Source: Cliona cf. orientalis (taxonomy: Eukaryota > Porifera > Demospongiae > Clionaida > Clionaidae). Taken from it: DNA of 64,000 nucleotides. The notes beneath the pieces were generated by a model, which was not told the origin of the DNA, ran no database searches, and saw only the letters and a list, made by a program, of their open reading frames with translations. Within the stretch, counting starts at the first letter, position 1, and every line of letters begins with the position of its first letter. The translations under genes and the position numbers were made by a program. The DNA lies in contig OZ005691.1 in the NCBI GenBank assembly GCA_963930775.1, positions 7,685,000-7,748,999 of the forward strand. Reading direction: 5' to 3'. Positions 6,391-38,379 of the stretch are shown one piece after another.

Positions 6391-7334
6391 TAGTAACAGA
6401 GGCTTTGATTCAGTTACGAACTGACCATATTAAATAATAATTATATTATTATTCCCAGTAGCCACCTGCATAGAGTGACTCTCAACTATGATCATAGTAG
6501 CAAAACGTTTCGATGCTTCGATCACTCAACAAAGATGAATTCGACAGTGCAGCCCCTGAAATTTATCTCATAAACTACCTCATAATTACACCCGGGCCAT
6601 ATGGTTTGGTGATATTAACTCATATTATTGAACCACAGCCCGGCGTATATGGTAGCTAGGCACAGGCGCCGCACATGCCCAGGGAACTGAGCTCTTGAGC
6701 TCCACCCCTTTTGGTGGGGGTGTGGCTCCCAAGCCAGTTTCTTGCATGCTAAAATTTTCTAGGAGAGCACTGCCATAGCTTGGAGCAGTTCCCTGGCGTC
6801 ATCAATGTCCTGGCTATGCACTGACTACGGAAAAGTGAGGATGTGTGATACAGTCAGGTACCTTACCCTAGATCACTGATCAGAATCTGCAGAGCACATT
6901 AGCTACCCCATCCTACTAGAATGCTGTTCAAATAATTATTAATTTTGTTATTCTTATCTTGATTCCATTCAGTGAACAAACATATATAATATGCATGCAC
7001 AGTGAGATTGTGAAGAGTGTCTGACATAATCTCATTGTGTGTGCATATAATATATCATGCACATGTCATGTTATGCTTGCCAATGGTTATCTGATAATAT
7101 CCATCCACCTGTCATCTTCAAAACAAGTACAGTACTAAGTCGCTAATTTATGCAGGAATGTTAATTTAGTCAAGTGCACATGACGTATCATGATGTGTGG
7201 CCAATCTCCTGACATGATATGATCTGATCTGTGATCTGACGCCTGACAACGATATTATAATCGATTACCTTGCGCATACGCATTGGTAATTTTCCCGTAC
7301 CCCTTGTGCATGCGCCTGAGAGTTAACCACTAAA
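6391..7334 (+). repeat. ~950 bp dispersed duplication R4, copy A
   Basis: Closely matches 10208-11170 from GTAGTAACAGAGGCTTTGAT to TTAACCACTAAA, with scattered substitutions and small indels. Contains a local inverted repeat around 6999-7040 (GTGAGATT... / ...AATCTCAT). No coding frame. It ends just upstream of the lectin-like gene and may supply its promoter region. Confidence 0.85.
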
Positions 7335-7423
7335 TTTTAGCACGTGCACTCTACAAAAACCCTTTTATATAAATTAAACTGGTAGGTACGGTCTTGATAG
7401 TTCATAATCTTCTTATTTGCACG

Positions 7424-8372
7424 ATGAAAGTAACTCTAGCATTCGTGGCAATTGTTCTGGCCAGCTATTGCTTGTGTGAGTCAAGTGCTCATGTGGCAGA
7501 TTTCTCGGGTGTGAAAGGCACAAATAATATTACTGCATTATTTCACACACCCTCAACGCTGTTTTTTCAGCTACAAGCTCAATCAAATGGCAAATGCCTG
7601 AAACTCACAGCAAACAGGGTAATCTATGTGAATTGTAGTGACCGCGAGTCAACGATATATTTTCGTAATGGAAACAACATAGTCATCTTTGGAACAAGTC
7701 ATTGTCTTGACCGTGAACGTTACCACAGTAGTTATTCCAATCTCCGCTACTCTGTTTGTGACCATTGTGGAGCTAAAAACTGGGACATTAAAAGTGATGG
7801 ATCATTGAGAGATGGAAAACTCTGCATCTCTTCTATATCCTGCGATCATGCTGAAGTTCGACACTGTTCGTATAATGAGTTTTAAAGATTCAATGTACTT
7901 GTGCTTGGAGATCGTTTTCTCCTGAAGAGTGTGGACCATGGCGACTGTGTTGGCGGTAGTAAGTTTGTCGACTGTGACTGTGCTCCTTCCTTTTATGTTA
8001 CAGGCACACCTCGAAACTACAACATCAGACTTTACGTTCCTGGTGATATTAATGGTAAACTTAATATTTGCCTTGACCGAAAAAGCTGCCATTCATCCAC
8101 CTCGAATCTCGAGTATTCTAAATGTGATCACTGTGGTGCAAAACACTGGTCAATTGAAGGCAATGCAGTTGGAGAAGATGAAATGAAAAACTGTAGCTAT
8201 TAACCGAGGTAGTAAAAACACAACATATGTGTCACACTGTTCGGATGGACACGAACCACTCTCTTTTGAAGTCCTTCCATCTAAAAGTGTAAATGTCGAA
8301 AGTGGCTTGTACTGGAATAGCATTCTCAAATGTGGGCACTTAACAGAGGTGATTGAGGATTCTGTACTGTGA
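7424..8372 (+). pseudogene. Secreted lectin-like (beta-trefoil type) protein, broken
   Basis: The ATG at 7424 starts a clear signal peptide (MKVTLAFVAIVLASYCLC). The mature part contains two homologous modules, each with a Cys-Leu-Asp-Arg motif and a CDHCGAK-x-W motif (first module about residues 50-145; second from 7886). Spacing of the Cys and Trp residues resembles ricin-B-type beta-trefoil carbohydrate-binding domains; that assignment is tentative. The frame is interrupted by an in-frame TAA at 7883-7885 between the modules and by a +1 frame change near 8195; a further open tail reaches a TGA at 8370-8372. The first segment alone could still yield a one-module secreted protein. Nothing indicates a toxic enzyme domain. 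Confidence 0.6.
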
Positions 8373-14330: not shown

Positions 14331-14545
14331 TTCTAATTACTATTGTAATATAATACTATTATTGTATTTTAATATAATATTTTGCTGCACCTGTTGTGGT
14401 GTGTCTTATCAAATCAATAATAGCTAATAGTAATAAGTAATTTCATCATAAATTTCACGATTGAGTTCTGAATACATACATTCTGGCATCCCAAATAAAG
14501 TTTGCACAGAGTTCATCAGAGTCACTATATTTTTTTTTCAATTTT

Positions 14546-15115
14546 CCCCTTGTCGTTCACGCAGTAATAGAATTATTCGTGGAGTCAGTGGGCGCTTGGA
14601 TAACCAAACGTCTCGCGATCGCGTCAACCAACGCGTTTGCAAGAGGCGCACCAAGGAGCAACCGAGCGGGGGAACTGGCCTCCCCTCGTCGTTCACGCAT
14701 TAATAGAATTATTTGTGGAGTCAGTGGGCACTTGAATGACCACTTATTCCAAACGTCTCGCGATCGCGTCAACCAACGCATTTGCAAGAGGCGCACCAAG
14801 GAGCAACCGAGGGGGGAACTGGCCTCCCCTCGTCGTTCACGCATTAATAGAATTATTTGTGGAGTCAGTGGGCACTTGAATGATCACTTATTCCAAACGT
14901 CTCGCGATCGCGTCAACCAACGCGTTTGCAAGAGACGCACCATACTAGTACCAAGGAGCAACCGAGCGGGGGAACTGGTCTGGACTCCCCTCGTCGTTCA
15001 CGCATTAATAGAATTATTTGTGGAGTCAGTGGGCGCTTGAATAACCACTTATTCCAAACGTCTCGCGATCGCGTCAACCAACGCTTTTGCAAGAGGCACA
15101 CCAAGGAGCAACAGA
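14546..15115 (+). repeat. Four-unit tandem array, 136-161 bp units
   Basis: Units begin at 14546, 14682, 14826 and 14987, each with CGTCGTTCACGCA, a GGAGTCAGTGGGC block, CGTCTCGCGATCGCGTCAAC and a GCGCACCAAGGAGCAACCGA block. Length differences come from short insertions near unit ends. Both strands stay open through much of the array, which reflects unit composition rather than a proven gene. GC content is higher than in the flanks. It directly precedes the Ty3/gypsy remnant. Confidence 0.85.
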
Positions 15116-27779: not shown

Positions 27780-28035
27780 TTTGTACACGCCTCGAATTGC
27801 TCAAAAAGGCTTACTAGTGCTACAAATCGTAAATTTTCTATTTAGCATGTCTGTGTTTTATCGACCACACCCACTCTTTTAGCATAATAGTATGTGTGCA
27901 TACTCAAACTCAATGTTGGAAAGGGTCACCAAGTCATAATATTATAATATGTGCAGAGTGTTACAATACTACACTACAGTGGCTACAGAGTGCGTGGGGT
28001 ATGTGCTCTACAGAGCTCTAGTTTTTATGCTGATA
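27780..28035 (+). repeat. Dispersed repeat R11, copy 2
   Basis: Counterpart of 5530-5800: AAAAGGCTTACTA, TTATCGACCACACCCACTCT, GAGTGTTACAATACTAC and GGGGTATGTGCTCTACAGAG in the same order. Confidence 0.7.
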
Positions 28036-28179: not shown

Positions 28180-28760
28180 TATATATATATCACAGCAAAA
28201 AATAATTGGTTACCATAATCCAAATTTTTGGGTTAAAATTACTGCAACTGAGGTAATCCACTTTCTGGGTTATGGTTACCAATATTCAGTCAGTTGTTGT
28301 TTTGACTACATTAACTACAGGCTACTATAACCAATAAAATGCTGGTAGTAATAACCATGCTTTGATAGTTGTACTGACCATTCAACTGGTGAGTTATACT
28401 AACTGATTGCATGTATTACACAAACCATTCAATTGATGAGTTATACTAACTACCTGCATACATTATAATAACCATTCAACTGAAAAATTACACTAACTGT
28501 ACACACATTACAATAACCACAATAAAACATCACTACAATCCCCAGGCTTGTTAGTCACATTAGTCCCTCCACCAGTGGGGTACACTAACAGGTTGGACTA
28601 ACCACAATCAAGGGTCACTACAATCACTTGTTCACAGATTATTATAACAACTGATTATGCAAAAGTAAACCACATGTTGGTAGCAATAACAATGTTAAGT
28701 GTGTACAGTAACCAACAGTAAAATTAATGATTGGTGTACGTTTGAAATAATTCACAAATT
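28180..28760. repeat. GTAACC-type repeat with internal tandem units
   Basis: Starts with an AGAGTATATATATATCACAGC end that recurs, inverted, at about 36978-37012. Inside, three units of about 50-57 bp (28376-28515) share AACCATTCAACTG, AGTTATACTAACT and an ACATTA block. Non-coding; related to the 36362-36970 duplication. Confidence 0.65.
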
Positions 28761-29067
28761 ATCATGATTACAGGTGTATGAATCAATCCTGAACCAGGAG
28801 AAGTAGAAACAGTTGTTGGCTACTATAAATGTTCAGTGTATGATTAATTACTGGGTTGTATGACTAAAGATTATGCTTAATGTCTGAAGTAGTGGCTAGG
28901 TATGTACCACTACGATCGTGAGAGTCAGGATGGCACACAATAAAATCTTGTAAGAAATAAAAGATATTTTTTTACTTAAGATGGATACTTTAGGTGATAC
29001 ACACATAATATGAGGCAAACATAAAAAATAGCATGTCTTGAAGGGAAGGATACTCACCAAGCACATC

Positions 29068-29390
29068 ATTAACCCTCGGCGCATGCGCGAGGGTTACGGT
29101 AGTTAGTTTGTGTGTCTGTCTGTCTGTCTGTTTGTTATCACGCTAGCTGCTACATACCTCGTTTGCGAGTCCAATTTGCGGTGTTGTAAGGTTCCTTATG
29201 GTGTTTCAAAGCCATGATTTGTGTGGATTTCTCCGAAAACGCTTTGTTCACCAGTTTTGGCGTCATTTGCCGATTCTAAGCTTCTTGACTTTGCCCGAGC
29301 TAGCGATAGCATGACTTAACGTATAAATAGGTTGCGCGCTATATACGGTATGTACGTCTATTAACCCTCAGCGCATGCGCGGTTACATCA
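29068..29390 (+). repeat. GCGCATGCGC / GTCT repeat
   Basis: AACCCTCGGCGCATGCGCGAG followed by a (GTCT)n tract at 29110-29133 and a conserved-looking AT/GC mosaic, with a second AACCCTCAGCGCATGCGCG end at 29361. This arrangement is familiar from Amphimedon dispersed repeats (recollection, not searched). Confidence 0.55.
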
Positions 29391-29430
29391 ATCCCGCAGC
29401 TCAGTCCACTGGTGAGCTTTTGACGATCGT

Positions 29431-29507
29431 GGGATGACAGTGGCTTCTTTTCAACTCTAAAGCTTAGCTGCTAAGTCTTAGAGTTGAAAAGAAGCCACTG
29501 TCATCCC
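29431..29507. repeat. Hairpin, perfect 30-bp arms
   Basis: Arms 29431-29460 and 29478-29507 (GGGATGACAGTGGC ... GCCACTGTCATCCC) with a 17-bp AGCTTAGCTG-containing loop. A smaller imperfect hairpin, TAGTCTCGTGCCCAGCCCC against GGGGGCTAGGCACGAGACTA, lies at 29757-29802. Confidence 0.85.
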
Positions 29508-30151
29508 ATGCTAAGCTGTCTGTACCCTTTGACTCTCTGGCTTGTATGCATGCATGGCATTTAATGCAGTGCTTGAACCCAAGTGAATTGTGATATTAAA
29601 ATTTGGACATGCAACATTGCACAGTGTACTTCAGTCTTGTGCCAAGGCTTTGCATCATAGTCCTTCAAGTTAAGATGTAGCTATCTAAGTCCCTAAGAAT
29701 TGGAGGTTAGGCTACAGTGAGGGAAGTTGAGTTGACCTCGACACCACAGTGTGGAGTAGTCTCGTGCCCAGCCCCTCCTACGGGGGGCTAGGCACGAGAC
29801 TAGTTGCTGCTATGAGCTGTTGCACCTTGAATAACACTGCTGTGCAAGTATAACATTAGCCTCATCCCAGTCTCGCCCCAGCCCCAGTCCTTTAGCTACC
29901 TCCTTTTCTGCATGCAACTGTTGAAGCATTTAGCTAATTTCATGCAGCGCGCCGAGGGTTTTGTGCTCGAGAGAGCTCTAGTTTTCTGCAGTGACGAAGT
30001 ACTGTACTTTGGCCATTGATGATATTAGAATCATTCTCGGAGCAGGATATGTTTCATGTAAAATTGTTTCCATGCTTGTAGTTTCCTGTAAGGTTTATAA
30101 TAATAGTAATGAGTGCTCCATATAATATTATTACATTGTTTTGAACTTACA

Positions 30152-32449
30152 TCATACTCCTGATACATGTAATTGAGCATGTTTTTTTCCAGATCGCACA
30201 GCAAAACATCCGCCTAAGATCTTCAATGCTACTTTTTGCTTGGAAAGTTCATCTGCATTATGCACAACTGATATACATGTACTTGTAGTAACTATGAACA
30301 CTTACCATGTTCATCTAGGTCCTCAATTATTGCAGAGATGGCACGTTTTCCACATTTTTGTCCATATGATATGATAGCTGGAACATACTTTGTACTCCAC
30401 TCTGCTATGAACTCCCTCTTAGCATGAGACTTTCCAAGAATTAGACCAAATTCCTGTTCAACCTGTATGACATTACCATTAGTATAGGGTTATAGCATGC
30501 ACAACGGCACAATATGAAAACAATAACCTTACCACAGCTGGTCTACTAAGTGCAGGGTATCGGTTCTTAATATCTCCGATGCTAGAAGAACCATTGACTA
30601 TAAACAACCTTCTTTCACCGTAAGTATTTTTCATCAAAGGCAAAAGAACTGTATCTCGTGGTTTGGACTTAGATAGCTCCTCAGTGATGGCAGCTTGATG
30701 TCTATCAACTGTAGATGGGTCTTCAATATCCATATTGGTAGATAAAACTGGATATCGCCGCGTAAGGTCAGCGTCTTGGACGTTCTTTTGGAGTTTAATT
30801 GGAGGATTAGACGAGCTATAATCTCCAGTTCGCCTTGCCTTCCTGGTATCATTTTTAATCACATTTCGAACTCATTCAATTATTTTATCACTCCAAGATT
30901 GCTGTAAAATAGTAATAAACAAAATTCTACTCCCCACCCCGGGCCCCTCCATGCAGTGCATAATAATTATTTCCAAATAATAATGCATATATGATTACCA
31001 AAAAACTTACATAGCCACATCCCAAATCATCCTTTGTAAAAGGGTATTTCAAAATTAGTTGCCGGGAAACTTGATCACAATCGCTTCGATCTGGTCTTTG
31101 TGACTTGGCAAAAAGTTGGCTGGCAACAGTGCGTACTATCTCATGACGGGCAGTTGGCGTCAAACACTTTTTGCGAATACACTCTTCAACCTCTGGGCAC
31201 CAGTGGTTAGGAATGGTAATGGAATGCGTATTCGCAGCAGCAGATGAAGCAATTGATGATCGCTCGGTGCAAATAGATCCAGACGGGGACTGTAGCTGAG
31301 CAGTTGGACTCATTGGTGTTGGAGAAGATAAGGGGGATGCAGGTGGCTCACTGACATGCTCTGCTGGCTTCTTCTGCATGTAACAAGTGCACATAACATA
31401 ATACCAGCATGGATGAACTAGCAACATTACAAACCTGCTGAATTAGGTATAAAATCTTTTTTACAAGGCCAATGGGGGGCACCATTTCAAGAATATCCTT
31501 CTCAGATAGCTGAAATAGTACTCCACCATCAACATAATTATCTGTATTGGTTGAATATCATTAATAATGTGCATATACTTTGTAAGGTTCCAAACAAACC
31601 TTCAAATGTTTCACAATACTCCAGTGGAAATCCTTCATCATGCAAAAAAGATGACAAGGAATCAACATCCATGGTTTTGAGCTTATCCCTCAGGGATGGA
31701 TCAATACATGAGATATCCTAGATGCATGGTATATGCACGTGGTATATACTTTTCAATTGTCTACTCAAGGCTCATTGAACCTGTTGTACATAAGGCAGTG
31801 TTCTCCCCAAACTAAATTCAAGGCATGACAGATTGGTATAGTTTGGGTGGAGCCTGTGGCCACAACAAAACTTATGGATTATCCGTATTCCCACCTCAAA
31901 AGAATTCTGTACTGAAGGCTTGTTGGGCTGACATGCCTTAGGTATGCTAGGGAGAACACTGTAGGGATGTAGTACATTCCTATATAAAGTGGATGGAACA
32001 ACCAGGGTTCACACAAGAGTTGGAGCTGGGTGTAGCTACGTAGTATCTATAATATCCTCCCAGGTGATTTGTGATAAAAAATGGTTGAGATGTAATGTAC
32101 TGTGATAAGGGAGGAAACTCCATGCACACTAAAAGAAATCCGGGCTAGTGGTAAGCATGCACCTCGGCTCCTACTTGTAATCCCTGAGCAACTCACTTTG
32201 GGTACGAAGGACACGATCTTTTTTGTTAGTCCTATAGGTGGGACAAGCTCATGCACATCATCTTCATTTAGCATCATAAACGCACAACCATCAATGTACT
32301 TTTCTAAGAAACATATACAAAATTAAGCGAAACGAAAAAAAGGCTAGCTACAACCCTACAACACTTGAAAAATAGCGGCTAACCTTCAAACACTTTACAG
32401 TACGTAGCTGGTATTCCTTTTCGTTCCAGATAGGAAGAGACAGTACATC
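30152..32449 (-). pseudogene. Two-SAM-domain (SAMD3-like) spliced gene, one nonsense codon, first exon displaced
   Basis: Eight exons, right to left: 32384-32449, 32197-32303, 31600-31717, 31435-31541, 31011-31373, 30533-30901, 30306-30462, 30152-30252, all with GT/AG borders and matching phases. Exons 1-2 and 3-4 each encode one SAM domain split at the same phase-1 site (YLERKGIPATYC..FE / YIDG...LVPPIGL and FLHDEGFPLEYC..FE / YVDGG...MVPPIGL). A Ser/Pro-rich linker follows, then the conserved region of SAMD3-like proteins (YPFTKDDLGCGY, LLPLMKNTYGERR, KNRYPALS, AEWSTKYVPAIISYG, ALKILGG). SAM domains mediate protein-protein interaction; the C-terminal part has no assigned chemistry. One in-frame TGA at 30872-30874 interrupts exon 6. 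No ATG lies in front of the first SAM exon; the fitting first exon is at 33372-33411 on the opposite strand (see findings). Such proteins are multi-copy and probably transposon-linked. Confidence 0.8.
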
Positions 32450-33164
32450 CCTGAAGTATTTTTCCTGTTTGAAACAAGTTTCGAGACCAGTGAAAGGGTG
32501 CGTTGCATCCAAAAATACCTCATCTAAGCCAGTGATAGTATCAGGATTAATCCCATCTTAGCACGGACACCAGCTTTTGTCCTTATTACAGACTGTTCAA
32601 GTACAGCTTCAATTCCTTCTACTACATCATCAATGGCTACCTGAGTTAGCCTTCTTTCCTCTTTTGGTTTCAAAAGGAAGAGGGCGCTCTCCGTTGCTGT
32701 TGGCTGAGATAACCAAGCAGGTAGTCGATATCAGCTTGAGCTTCATCTATATTATTAGAATAAATGACGCCATAAACAAAGCACCTGCTGCCCAATTAGG
32801 TGGGCATGCAAGCGTGTACATCATCATCATTATTAGCTAGCTACATACCAGGAATTATATCCATTGTTAGTTGTTCACAGTTGTAAGATTGATTTATCTC
32901 CATGCAGTCTACTCCTGTGGCTGTATTTGAAGTGTCGCTGAGATTCTGAGAGATACGGTTAGAGCTAGACCAGTGGCATCGATGTAGGTGTGAGTGGAGG
33001 CCAGAGTACTTGCGATATGTTCTAGCACAGCCATCAATACCACACATTACGTGAAATCGTGGATCGCTGGAATGAACGCTGCGTAGATGACTCAATACTA
33101 ACTTCACAGTAGGTGCGCTGAAAGAGCACATGGGGCATTTTTTTTTGCTGATTTTGGACGACAT
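32450..33164 (-). pseudogene. C2H2 zinc-finger 5' part of transposase-like gene, inverted away from its body
   Basis: Exon 32849-33164 starts MSSKISKKKCPMCSF and holds two C2H2 fingers (CPMC...HLRSVH and CGIDGC...HLHRCH). It ends in phase 1 at CCTG|GTATGT. The next exon begins at 32696 or 32746 and reads ESALFLLKPKEERRLTQVAI, then after a 1-nt frame change near 32548 NPDTITGLDEVF and GLETCFKQEKYF, ending at 32450. In relatives known to me from sponges and cnidarians this region is followed directly by the transposase-like body starting with a PEEI-type segment, which here lies on the plus strand at 33473. The frame change makes it a probable pseudogene. Confidence 0.75.
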
Positions 33165-33371
33165 TTTTCGATTCAACGACCAAATGCGGAGATAATACAC
33201 TTCTGCGCATGCGCATTTGCCAGTACACGTGGAGTTGTGTGCGTGTCACATGACAGCACTAGGAGCACGTGTTGCCTGTAGTTCAAAAAAGTTGACTGCT
33301 GCTTCAAGCTAGCTGCGGCCTCGCTTTTCAACGTCATATCCTTTTCTAACTTAAACATCAGCATCATCATC
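33165..33371. promoter_or_regulatory. Bidirectional promoter with NRF1-like palindrome
   Basis: About 207 bp separate two divergent ATGs (33164 minus, 33372 plus). TGCGCATGCGCA at 33204-33215 is a perfect match to the animal NRF1 binding consensus, and CACGTG occurs near 33266. No TATA box is obvious. GCGCATGCGC also occurs in dispersed repeats here, so function is inference. Confidence 0.5.
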
Positions 33372-33411
33372 ATGGACGTAAAAATGAGCACGAAAGATAC
33401 TAGGACTGTTG
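33372..33411 (+). pseudogene. Displaced first coding exon (MDVKMSTKDTRTV)
   Basis: ATG at 33372 followed by 13 codons plus one base, a strong donor G|GTAAGT at 33412, a 61-bp intron and an acceptor TTGATTAG ending at 33472. Spliced to the adjacent plus-strand exon at 33473 the frame is wrong (TGA within three codons). Spliced to the minus-strand SAM exon starting at 32449 it is exactly in phase. Confidence 0.6.
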
Positions 33412-33472
33412 GTAAGTATGAGTATCCGATAGAAATATGAAATGTCAGTTGATAGATTCATTTCTTGATTAG

Positions 33473-35374
33473 GAGCCTGAAGAAATACGGATTGGTGATC
33501 CAGAATTCATCCCAAGTGGAACAGGAGACAAGAGGAAGTTGGTTTCCAGGTGTGACATGATTCAGTATGTCCCCATATTAAGTACACTTGAGAAACTATT
33601 AAGAGATCAATGTATCCTGGATGAAATTGAGAGTTTGCCACAACGTATGCATAACAACGAATTATTAGAAGACTTCTGTAATGGAACACTCTTTAAGATG
33701 CATCCACTATTTTCAAGTGATCCTCATGCTCTCCAAATAATAGCATATTTCGATGAGCTTGAAGTATGCAATCCACTTGGATCGCATGTTAAAAAGCACA
33801 AATTAGGATTAGTTTTCTTTTCTCTTGGGAATATTCATCCCAAGTTACGATCTTCCTTGAAGGCTATCAATTTAGTGACAGTGGCTAGTTCTACTATGAT
33901 TGATCGATAAGTATGGAATTAACAAGGTTTACAGCCATTTGTACGAGATTTAACCATCCTGGCTACACATGGGATAAATGTTACCATAAATGGAAGACAG
34001 CGAGTTTTTAAGGGTGCACTGCTAGCTTTCTTGGCTGATAACCTTGCTAGCAATGCTTTAGGTGGCTTTAAACTTCATTTTCATTCTCATATCGATATTG
34101 TCGAACGTGTCTACTTCCGAAGGATGAAATAACCTCTTCATTTGACTCACATGACTTTGTACCACGCTGTACCGATAGTCATGTGAAACAGTGTATGCTT
34201 GTAGAAGGACCAAATGGACCTCACCATTCAACAACCTATGGAATTAATAATCGCTCATGTCTCCTTGATGTTAATTATTTTTCCGTTTTTGGCGGAGGAT
34301 AACCTCACGACTGCATGCACGATGTACTAGAAGGCGTTGGCCCAAAGGAACTTAAGTTACTGCTTATACATTGTATTTCATCCAAATTTTTTACTTTAAA
34401 CGAGTACAATGAGAGACTTGCCAACTTCAACTATGCCTATAGTGACAATGATAGACCTATCCCAGTTCTTTGTACGACTCTCTCAAGGGATACTACCATC
34501 CGTTCTCTCTGCTGCCCAGATGTTGACATTGTTTCGGAATTTACCCATTATGATTGGCCCCAAAATACCGGAAGGTAATGAGAACTGGTCCTGTTTTCTC
34601 CTACTAAAAAAAATTCTGGATATAATTATGTGCCCCGTTCTTCCTTCTAGTACATGTGCAACGTTGAAGATTTTAATAATTGAACACCACACTCTATACT
34701 GCTCACTTTGTGGTAATGACCAAGTCATTCCAAAAATGCATTTTCTTACTCACTATCCTGAGCAGATTATGGCAATTGGACCCATAATGCGGGCTTGGAC
34801 AATGCGGCATGAAGCAAAGCTCAATTTTTTCAAGCAAGCTCCACGCATATCTAATTTCAAAAACATTCCTCAAAGTGTCACCAGGAGGCACCAACGTTGG
34901 CAGTGCTATCAACTGGCAAAGTATAATCTATTGAATGTCCCCCTTCAATGTGGTCCAGGGAGACCAGCCTCGCTTTTGAGTGATGAGTCCGATGATTTGA
35001 GAACCATGATAATCCAGTCTAATCCTAACATTGACACAGCTTCGTCTGTTTTTCGTCCATCTTGGGCATGTTATGAAGGTATTTTGTACAAACCCAATAA
35101 TTGTTTCCTTATCAAAGCGTGCAATGGCTTAGATCCAGTATTTGTTAAATTAGTTGAGATTTTAGTCATTGGGAATAGTCTTGTCACATTTATTGTTCAA
35201 GAGTGTAAGATTTTATATTTTGAAGATAATTATCATTCGTATGCTCTAGAACTTCTACCGGCAAAGTCAGTTGTGTACCTTGAGGGTTTATATGACCGTA
35301 CTGTATTACATGGGCACACAATTAACTCTATAATACATATTGGTTTAAAGTATTATTTTCTGTCAGATCTATAG
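33473..35374 (+). pseudogene. Transposase-like protein body, several disruptions
   Basis: Reads PEEIRIGDPEF..., then YVPILSTLEKLLRDQ, DFCNGTLF.MHPLFS, LQIIAYFDELEVCNPLGS, KHKLGLVFFSLGNIHPK (to 33910), LADNLASNALGGF (near 34040), a CRTC motif, HSTTYGINNRS, PHDCMHDVLEGV (34303-34340), MIGPKIPEG, IPKMHFLTHYP and MRHEAKLNFFK, then a less conserved tail to a TAG at 35372. These blocks identify a C2H2-fronted transposase-like family that is multi-copy in invertebrates; its superfamily (KDZ- or Plavaka/CACTA-related) is uncertain, and the acidic residues in LADN and CMHD are only candidate catalytic residues. Lesions: TAA at 33908-33910 with a nearby frame change, a frame change near 34095, TAA at 34300-34302, and a frame change near 34460-34500. 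Confidence 0.75.
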
Positions 35375-35594
35375 ACTATCATAACATAAATTAGTCATAA
35401 TTATTCTTCACATTTGTTCACTATATCCAAAACAATATCAAGTGTACAACAGTCATAATAATAATAATTATTATGCTGCGCATAATATTGTGTGTGTATC
35501 AGCTGAGTTTATTATTACCTTGAGGGAGGTTTGAAACAAACCCAGCAACTTTGCATGTGACTATCACATGACTTAAGTACATGCAGTAATAATA

Positions 35595-36278
35595 ATGGCT
35601 TGCTTTCTAAGAGATCAGTTAGTGCCTCAAGGAGCTCAAAACAGATCTTCACCTGGTCCTAATGTGCCAGAATACTGGGATGATCAAGCCTCCTCTGTGG
35701 AGCTGTTTGAAGTATCTCCTGATACAAATGAATGGAGATTTTATGAAAAAAAATTTACCAGCTCTATACCAGTCACTGTGAAGCAGATAACCAGGATTCA
35801 GAACCTGTGGTTGTGGGAGGCATACCAATTCAACAAATATAGGATTCAACATAAAAATAAAGGGATTATCAATGAGCTGATGCTTTATCATGGCAGCAAA
35901 GAAAATGATCCAATGGACATATGCAAAGGCGAGGATGGATTTGATTTACGATTGAGCAACAAAGGAAGTTGGGGGGTTGCTCTCTATTTTTCTGAGAGTA
36001 TAAAGTACTCTGATAGGTTTGCTCATACTACTCCCGAAGGAGACAAAGAAATAATAATTGTGTATGTACTTACGGGAGAGGCATACGACTGTGGGACAAA
36101 ACAAAACAAAGAAATTAGAATGCCACCAGTGAAAAGCAGCTCACAAGATAACATTCAAAATGTTAAATACGATAGTATTTCTGCCATATCAAAGGATACT
36201 AGAGTATATATGCTTTATGAGACCAATAGAGCATATCCAGCCTACGTGGTGAAGTACCAGTATCAACAATTATCTTGA
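35595..36278 (+). CDS. PARP-family mono-ADP-ribosyltransferase-like protein
   Basis: An uninterrupted 227-codon ATG-to-TGA frame with a PARP catalytic domain (about residues 45-225) and a short N-terminal extension. Donor-loop and NAD-site motifs are visible: LYHGS with H99, GSWGVALYF with Y131, KYSDRFA, and EIIIVYVLTGEAYD. The C-terminal strand reads YPAYVVKY (214-221). No Glu is evident where PARP1 has its catalytic Glu, so mono- rather than poly-ADP-ribosylation is predicted; inactivity cannot be excluded. The closest resemblance is to the PARP10/14/15 group, but no macrodomain, WWE or SAM domain is attached. Intronless, which could mean a retrocopy or a naturally single-exon gene. It lies 220 bp downstream of the transposase-like remnant on the same strand, with no sign of shared transcription. 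Confidence 0.85.
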   Translation: MACFLRDQLVPQGAQNRSSPGPNVPEYWDDQASSVELFEVSPDTNEWRFYEKKFTSSIPVTVKQITRIQNLWLWEAYQFNKYRIQHKNKGIINELMLYHGSKENDPMDICKGEDGFDLRLSNKGSWGVALYFSESIKYSDRFAHTTPEGDKEIIIVYVLTGEAYDCGTKQNKEIRMPPVKSSSQDNIQNVKYDSISAISKDTRVYMLYETNRAYPAYVVKYQYQQLS

Positions 36279-36361
36279 TTGTATGCCACTTTGTGCAATA
36301 TTTAATGGCAGTGTTCTTCCCTTGACTAACTGTCCAATATTATCAGATTCTGAGAAAAATA

Positions 36362-36970
36362 AGAATACCATGGGCTATAACTATCATTGAAGGTGCATGA
36401 TATGTAGTAAACATGCTAATGATCATAATTACTAAATACCATGGATTATTAAATTAACTATAGTATGCATAGAGGTTACAGTAACGTAATAATTATCATT
36501 ATAGTAATCCACATAGGTAAATATAATCAAGTAATATCCATTAATAGTAACTACTTACTTACTTACTTACAGTAACCCTATAGATGGTTACATCAACCGT
36601 AGTGAAGGTATGATAACTATAGAACATAATAGTTGTATTACACCATCGTGGTTACTGTAACCTCCACACTCTTGATAAGAATGCCATGGGTTAAAATTAT
36701 CCATAGAAGGTGATAGTAAACATACCAATGATCATAATTACAACATACCATGGATTATATTAACTAATATACTCTTGCTAATATGCATAGAGGTTACAAT
36801 AACCTTAATAATTATTATTATAGTTATCCATAATTAGGTAAACATAATCCAACATTAGTAAGTATTATTCATTGATAGTAGCAGTAACCCTAAATGGTTA
36901 CATCAACCTTATTGAAGGTATGGTAACTAGTATAATAATAGTTGTATTACACCATCGTGGTTATTGTAAC
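36362..36970 (+). repeat. Tandem duplication, 2 x ~300 bp
   Basis: 36362-36664 and 36680-36970 share TACCATGG, CATAGAGGTTACA.TAAC, GGTTACATCAACC and GTTGTATTACACCATCGTGG in the same order with many substitutions. A (CTTA)n tract lies near 36554-36575 in the first unit only. The right edge has the same TATATATA end as the repeat at 28180. Confidence 0.8.
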
Positions 36971-37228
36971 CCAACACTTTTTGCTGTGATATATATATAT
37001 ACTCTTTTCTTTGGCACTTGTTTTTGGACAGATATATAATAATATATTATTATTATATCTTCAAAAAGACATGGAAATACCACGTGGTTGTACTAAACTT
37101 TTATAATTTCAATGCCATGAAACTTTGGAACTGCTTGATTGGAAAAATTTCGTTTCAGTCTCATATTGTAGAGCAACACGAGAGCTATTGAATGGTGCTT
37201 GAATTATGGGAATCAGTCCAAGGGAACC

Positions 37229-37450
37229 TACCGTATAGCCGGAAAATTTGGCGGGGAATTAAATTTGGCGGTTTGGCGGTCTATTATTACAACCGCCAAA
37301 TTAAAATCCGCCAAAATTTCCTACTCGCATATATACGTATGGCAATCCCGTACCGAACCACCAAATTTAAATCCGCCAATATTCTTTTAATAGCGATTTT
37401 GGGCTCAACCGCCAAATTTAATGCCCGCCAATATTTCCGGCTATACGGTA
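37229..37450. mobile_element. TACCGTA foldback MITE, 222 bp
   Basis: Ends TACCGTATAGCCGG and CCGGCTATACGGTA are exact inverted repeats; the interior repeatedly alternates GGCGG/CCGCC with AAATTT in both orientations (for example TTTGGCGG, AACCGCCAAATT). Non-coding despite open frames. Confidence 0.85.
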
Positions 37451-38379
37451 ATTGCCCCACTTTCACACAAGATTGTGAGGCGCTTGCGAATAGCATGCAC
37501 AGAAGTGCTTGCTGTGGAGCTCAACAATGTCTTCAGATTATATGATCTGAATAAGCAGAAATTGGAACAGTTTCTCTGTCTTCTGGTCTTTATTTAGAGT
37601 AAATAGAGTAGGAAGCAATCACACGTTGCGGGGACCACCGATACAAATTGTGGGTGTGGCTTTGATTACTGACTTTTGTGATCACAATTATTCTTTTGTA
37701 GAGGTCATATTTTAGCAGGCTTTTGCAAGGAAAGTCTGATACATAAAAGAATACATAAGGGCTATGTGTCAAGCTTGATTCCCCCCCCCCCTCCCCCATT
37801 CCTACTCCACTGAGAAGTGAAAGGTGGCCTAGATAGAAGAGATAAAAAATAGATAAATGCAGCAAAATTGCATGCACTGGAGTGTGCCACCAGATGCACT
37901 TCCTGAATCTACAACAATGTGACTGCTGGCTTAATGATTGAATATGGATGTTAATAAATATAACCTCTGTAGGTTAAGGTTGTTTATATTTCTTATAGAA
38001 TTTCATAGATCATGTGCACGAAAGCAACATCAGTAGTAAGGTGTGGTGTAATTACCTAAAATATCGGATTGCATGACATTGTATACAAAATGTTATAGAC
38101 TGAAGTTGGGGGTGTAGAACACTCAGAAGCTCCTGATTTAAGTCTCCTAGAGGTATGATAATTAATTATAAATGATGTTGATAGTCATATATCGTTAATA
38201 TAGAATGAAACAAGGAATCGCAGTTCCATGGGCATTAATGCTCTTATGACATACTGTCTACTTCTCAAAGATGAAAATGCCTATTCGTGTTGTGATTATA
38301 GCCACACTTCATTCGTATTGCAAGATTTTGATGAACCAAACAAAAGATTGAAGGTGCATAAATAATAATATTATTATAG
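37451..38379. other. Intergenic, no feature recognised
   Basis: AT-rich sequence with a C10TC5 tract near 37781-37797; no gene or repeat boundary supported. Confidence 0.4.

Follow-up and report, generated by a model that had tools for sequence, protein, structure and literature searches.

Gene content and arrangement of the locus

The window analyzed here is a stretch of 64,000 nucleotides from the genome of the sponge Cliona cf. orientalis, and coordinates are positions in it unless another locus is named. Within it we found an 8.8-kb element of the CACTA/EnSpm type with three genes: a SAM-like gene on the minus strand and, on the plus strand, a transposase gene with C2H2-like and TNP2-like parts and a gene with a PARP catalytic domain. 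The features of the element are as follows.

28191–36988 (no strand): whole CACTA/EnSpm-type element, 8.8 kb, with CACAGCAAAAA terminal inverted repeats at both ends
28191–28201 (+): left terminal inverted repeat, CACAGCAAAAA
30306–32303 (−): SAM gene exons 2 to 7, comprising the second half of SAM-like repeat 1, SAM-like repeat 2 and a tail; the model ends at exon 7
32303–32197, 31717–31600, 31541–31435, 31373–31011, 30901–30533, 30462–30306 (−): ends of these SAM exons, read by eye from splice-site sequence
32384–32441 (−): remainder of SAM exon 1, severed from its start, with TACT before it on this strand and the donor GTTAGC from 32383
32446–32746 (−): inverted part of transposase exon 2 (middle exon), with frameshifts near 32690 and 32556
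32849–33164 (−): C2H2-like first exon of the transposase, inverted here; relatives have it on the same strand as the body
33165–33371 (no strand): presumed shared promoter, 207 bp between the two start codons, inside the inverted segment; function suggested by the layout
33372–33397 (+): displaced 5' part of SAM exon 1, with the start codon and first codons, followed by TACT
33402–33411 (+): unmoved end of transposase exon 2, AGGACTGTTG, preceded by TACT
33412–33472 (+): native transposase intron, 61 bp, phase 0, GTAAGT...TTAG
33473–35374 (+): body of the transposase (exon 3), broken; called TNP2-like on the basis of its relatives
35577–36278 (+): gene with a PARP catalytic domain, the element's third, with a 233-aa open frame
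36978–36988 (−): right terminal inverted repeat, CACAGCAAAAA read on the minus strand

The sole gene name in the window that passes a Pfam cut-off is that of the PARP gene (PF00644, 45.9 bits against a cut-off of 26.7). The second SAM repeat reaches 19.1 bits with SAM_1 (cut-off 23), the first has no SAM_1 match, and all Pfam zinc-finger matches of the C2H2-like exon fall below the cut-off. We therefore keep the names 'SAM-like' and 'C2H2-like', which follow the motifs and the label used in the first-pass annotation, an earlier reading of the bare sequence. That annotation had placed the C2H2-like and middle exons on the minus strand and the transposase body on the plus strand, and had noted that the ATG at 33372 and its first codons lie on the plus strand while the SAM exons on the minus strand have no start; both observations are correct. 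It described the locus as a head-to-head gene pair. The two genes are indeed divergent, but they are part of a decayed CACTA/EnSpm-type transposon.

Layout of related copies in the genome

Homology searches of the same assembly (217 Mb, 149 contigs; E up to 0.001, or up to 0.01 for the C2H2-like exon) returned at least 71 matches to the transposase body, at least 47 to the C2H2-like exon, at least 30 to the SAM tail and at least 49 to the PARP gene, the window being included in these lower bounds. A body lies within 4 kb of 45 of the 47 C2H2-like matches (the other two have none), and the C2H2-like exon is upstream of the body in every such pair. Exon and body share a strand in 44 of the 45 pairs, many of which are related or near-identical copies, so that the 44 are not independent trials; the sole opposite pair is the copy in the window. 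Pairs of SAM gene and body within 9 kb, again including the window, are divergent in 24 of 24 cases, and six of the 30 SAM matches have no body in range. Comparison with the other genomic SAM/C2H2 copies, a check that the annotation had suggested, thus yields the inverted order in none of the 44 other pairs, and the layout of the family on both sides bears out the annotation's view that a single flip reunites both genes.

At the DNA level, the inverted order is present once in the assembly, by a genome search that short diverged matches may escape. Specifically, an exact-pattern scan of the genome contigs for a junction flank gave no match, and a search with 33340–33480 returned the window only; the same search missed a 40-base match to the relic described below, so short diverged matches do escape it. 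In addition, the presumed promoter contains GCGCATGCGCA and then GTACACGTGG, both kept in the window and in its nearest relative, L064 (about 1487–1517); we take GCGCATGCGCA to resemble an NRF-1 site.

Placement of the inversion endpoints

Three features define the proposed inversion.

32442–32445 (+): AGTA, left copy of a 4-bp inverted microhomology; one block of the relic match ends at 32442
32446–33397 (no strand): inverted segment, unambiguous core of 952 bp
33398–33401 (+): TACT, right copy of the 4-bp inverted microhomology; the other block of the relic match ends at 33398

We scored 6,588 endpoint pairs (32420–32480 by 33385–33492) by the fit of both rebuilt genes to the peptides of five relatives each, with any GT-AG intron of 30–400 bp allowed. 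The top seven pairs all have the same endpoint sum (i+j=65843). Ranks 2 to 6 are the five TACT-equivalent pairs, from 32442/33401 to 32446/33397, which score 138.4 each and rebuild one identical sequence because AGTA and TACT are inverted copies of each other; the best single pair, 32441/33402, scores 138.6 and lies one base outside this set. A single flip rebuilds both junctions without loss or gain, to within a few bases.

The SAM side of this placement rests on a relic, L002 on C9. L002 also matches the left end of the element (28435–28223) and so looks like the remnant of a related element. Against the present window it aligns in two blocks, 33359–33398 and 32442–32371, which adjoin in L002 (1462–1501 and 1501–1571), whereas against the rebuilt order it gives a single alignment of 114 columns at 81% identity (E 5e-24) across the uninverted SAM junction. 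L002 favors the TACT set, but its alignment contains a gap of 3 bases next to the junction. Moreover, in seven loci of five families (a DNA-level reading), SAM exon 1 continues uninterrupted by any intron from the ATG into the SAM-like domain, and the C9 relic has no intron there either.

The transposase side rests on peptide length and on DNA comparison, for which the nearest relative spanning the junction has only about 68% identity. L064 matches the rebuilt order across this junction in one block (33105–33416 in flipped coordinates, 115 bits) and the present order only up to 32462 (106 bits), a small gain from the flip. In eight of nine loci of relatives, exon 2 ends in YF[RK] or an equivalent plus six residues, followed by a GT-AG intron and EP; the nine include near-identical copies, and the remaining locus, L015, is not in frame there. 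The six residues are, for example, DVLGLL, ETLGLV, DHFDLR or DRFNMV, in reads such as YFKDVLGLL, YFRETLGLV, YFRDHFDLR and YFRDRFNMV. The rebuilt window reads FRDVLGLL, intron, EPEEI on the transposase side and MDVKMSTKDTVSSYLERKGIP at the other rebuilt end.

These comparisons preserve the central idea of the first-pass annotation, a single inversion by which the genes of a head-to-head pair had their 5' parts and presumed promoter exchanged, which has on its side the 44 other pairs and one DNA-level relic across the junction; they do not preserve its endpoints, its intron assignment or its hairpin. It had flipped exactly 32450–33472, giving the 61-bp intron to the SAM gene and a hairpin to the right junction. 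Such a flip restores an open frame in both genes, but it loses the six residues before the phase-0 intron that relatives have, gives SAM exon 1 an intron found in none of the seven loci, is contradicted by the C9 relic and ranks 456th of the 6,588 pairs; we give it practically no credence. Its left endpoint lies 4 bp, and its right endpoint 75 bp, from the corresponding end of the inverted core. Across its left boundary (32450/32449), EKYFR-DVL runs unbroken on the minus strand and is native exon sequence as in the relatives, and the 61-bp intron belongs to the transposase, whose acceptor is in place. The proposed hairpin (CTTCAGG-GAG-CCTGAAG), which was derived from the wrong endpoints, is absent from the rebuilt junction, where the transposase intron parts arms that would need to lie three bases apart. 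The annotation had also counted the restoration of two frames at once as strong evidence. The frames are restored, but because wrong endpoints restore both as well, frame restoration alone is weak evidence; what looked decisive was a tempting misreading, corrected once relatives were used to place the breakpoints. The idea of a hairpin goes back to CCTGAAG, which is a direct repeat at 32450–32456 and 33476–33482, the right copy starting 3 bases past the boundary.

A second set of endpoints would join ACAGT (32440–32444) to ACTGT (33405–33409), with i+j=65849. Its 5-bp microhomology is longer, and both frames are kept at rank 72. However, it would place the end of transposase exon 2 two codons before the position seen in eight of nine relatives (the ninth being out of frame), and the relic lacks the extra TAGGAC that SAM exon 1 would then contain. 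We consider this version very unlikely, and its endpoints were set aside after the endpoint scan and the comparison with the L002 relic.

Proposed mechanism of the inversion

On the strength of these sequence comparisons, the locus is very probably an old, inactive three-gene CACTA/EnSpm-type transposon in which the 5' parts of two genes were flipped by one inversion at TACT/AGTA. In the normal state, the 207-bp presumed bidirectional promoter would drive the SAM gene to its left and the transposase gene to its right. The DNA would have broken at two points, within SAM exon 1 and 14 bases short of where transposase exon 2 ends, and would have been rejoined inversely at the 4-bp motif, with no loss or gain of bases required. 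Both genes would be left without their 5' parts because the promoter was carried off by the flip, together with the start of the SAM gene and exons 1 and 2 of the transposase. The cause may have been end-joining or template switching at the microhomology: two rejoined breaks or a template switch at these 4 bp would be the simplest account, although four bases are no proof of mechanism. Homologous recombination is unlikely because the region 29000–37500 contains no inverted repeat of at least 16 nt that would pair the ends of the segment. Small microhomology-joined inversions have a few bases of inverted identity at their ends and no long repeats, and need no net gain or loss. The event in the window is alike in all these respects; that it struck a transposon whose genes lie back to back is incidental.

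We also considered that the genome itself is uninverted and that the flip stems from a chimeric read or a consensus error, that is, from an artefact of the library or the assembly. A single copy of the region was found in the one assembly examined, so the flip has no support from a second haplotype. Against an artefact stand the lack of any N at the junctions, the joins at a 4-bp microhomology, the lack of a pairing inverted repeat noted above and the length of the contig (12 Mb), and we judge it improbable. One microhomology-joined inversion in an old element is the most likely reading.

Decay of the copy in the window

The transposase gene of the window carries six frameshifts and one stop in total. 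Compared with the open bodies of L005 and L075, its body has four frameshifts (near 33896–33905, 33927, 34073 and 34495–34507) and one stop (34300), the two references placing two of the frameshifts 9–12 bases apart. The two frameshifts of the middle exon were read against a single reference, L064. Among control bodies, L006 has no lesion but L004 has two frameshifts, which means that the nearest relative is broken too. No lesion was found in the C2H2-like exon or in the open frame of the PARP gene, and the one stop reported for the latter precedes that frame. In the SAM gene, exon 6 contains an in-frame stop (TGA at 30874–30872). A contrast between an intact SAM gene and a decayed transposase was dropped, there being no stop-free frame for SAM exon 6. 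Given the SAM stop and the frameshifts and stop of the transposase, the copy is dead and the inversion is one lesion among several.

A flip with a function, such as a reversible promoter switch or one used by the host, would fit with the whole presumed promoter turning together with the segment. Yet both genes bear further stops or frameshifts, the inverted order occurs in none of the 44 other pairs, and no long inverted repeat pairs the ends; we regard a function as next to impossible. The flipped stretch of about 950 bases within a decayed cut-and-paste transposon is probably a real but ordinary scar, and it shows how one transposon copy decayed.

A sister copy, L034 (C4:2832447–2835956), is 89–91% identical over parts of the SAM gene. 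Its first SAM intron apparently contains an inserted repeat, and a PARP fragment lies immediately beyond the copy. It has no match to SAM exon 1 and is thus uninformative on the inversion junction.

A three-gene CACTA/EnSpm-type element

The more useful by-product of this analysis is the element itself, which is of CACTA/EnSpm type and bears SAM-like and PARP genes in a layout seen repeatedly in the genome. Copies L075–L077 have the same layout, and the termini are inverted repeats of the form CAC...GTG both in these copies (CACTGCAAAAA) and in the window (CACAGCAAAAA), as in CACTA/EnSpm elements. The C1 and C7 copies, at different genomic places, are 99.9% identical over 8,029 bp, and the C5 copy is 96–97% identical to both over the main blocks. 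Target-site duplications are 2 bp long in the C1 copy (TG) and the C7 copy (TA) and ambiguous in the C5 copy (AGCT repeat); that of the window is ambiguous because both flanks are AT repeat. The 2 bp of these two copies differ from the 3 bp expected, which is the length that one study gives for its EnSpm families (PMC12730594), and compare with 2–5 bp across the wider CMCT clade.

Two bodies were tested against the TNP2-type Pfam family Transposase_21 (PF02992, cut-off 28.6), and one of them passes (L075, 29.8 bits; L005, 22.8 bits). A Pfam search of the window found no Transposase_21 match in its own broken body pieces, which we call TNP2-like by their homology to the bodies of L075 and L005. 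A protein search gave 375 transposase relatives among 7,991 scored candidates, of which 120 were listed, and we aligned nine of these 120 with two bodies from the source genome. D94, D188, C209/C212, H425/H429 and E449 are invariant in all 11 proteins, a series that corresponds to D, D, C(2)C, H(3)H, E; the same study (PMC12730594) defines the clade by D, D and E, with C(2)C and H(3-4)H located after the second D and before E. D94 and D188 are candidate catalytic residues, a choice of ours among several invariant D residues. The element thus shares with CACTA/EnSpm transposons (CMC/CMCT clade, TNP2 transposase) a TNP2-like body (by its relatives), the residue series, the CAC...GTG ends and near-identical dispersed copies. 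Unlike CACTA/EnSpm elements in general, it has a divergent SAM-like gene and, in the seven copies found (window included), a PARP gene.

Eight of the 49 PARP matches, from these seven copies, lie 2.1–4.3 kb downstream of a body and on its strand; in L075 the gene is at 7325–8056. The copies at C1:15.50 Mb and C1:1.01 Mb have no PARP match beside them among the matches listed. Another 22 of the 49 matches are on C10 or C18; many of them occupy long open frames, and they are probably host genes. The best relative of the element's PARP among solved structures is PARP15 (E 6e-21). Poly-ADP-ribosylating enzymes have a glutamate at the last catalytic position. By eye, the element's PARP seems to lack it, which points to mono-ADP-ribosylation as its predicted activity.

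Enzyme genes captured by DNA transposons include the TET/JBP dioxygenases in fungal EnSpm, Zisupton and other elements (PMC12730594). The likeness lies in an enzyme gene riding beside the transposase; the difference is that the passenger here is a PARP-domain gene. Among the matches listed in a literature search with partial coverage, titles and abstract openings described no EnSpm element bearing a PARP or SAM gene. It is possible, and we suggest it tentatively, that the element represents a scarcely described CACTA/EnSpm-type lineage, with a divergent SAM-like partner on a promoter common with the transposase and a captured gene for a PARP15-like mono-ADP-ribosyltransferase that might oppose silencing by the host or assist repair where the element has been excised. 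In that case the inversion would be a natural separation-of-parts scar in this lineage.

Neighboring features

A possible nested small element lies within the left part of the transposon (29068–29985), with GCGCATGCGC, a GAGCTCTAG end and a 39-nt inverted repeat at 29430–29508; similar ends occur at 28001–28027 and in L002 and L034. Just right of the CACTA/EnSpm-type element, 37222–37457 is MITE-like sequence with 44-nt inverted arms (80%). Elsewhere in the window, 14465–15040 is a repetitive open frame of 191 aa that contains repeated ASPRRSRINRIICGVSGHLNDHLFQTSRDRVNQR units.
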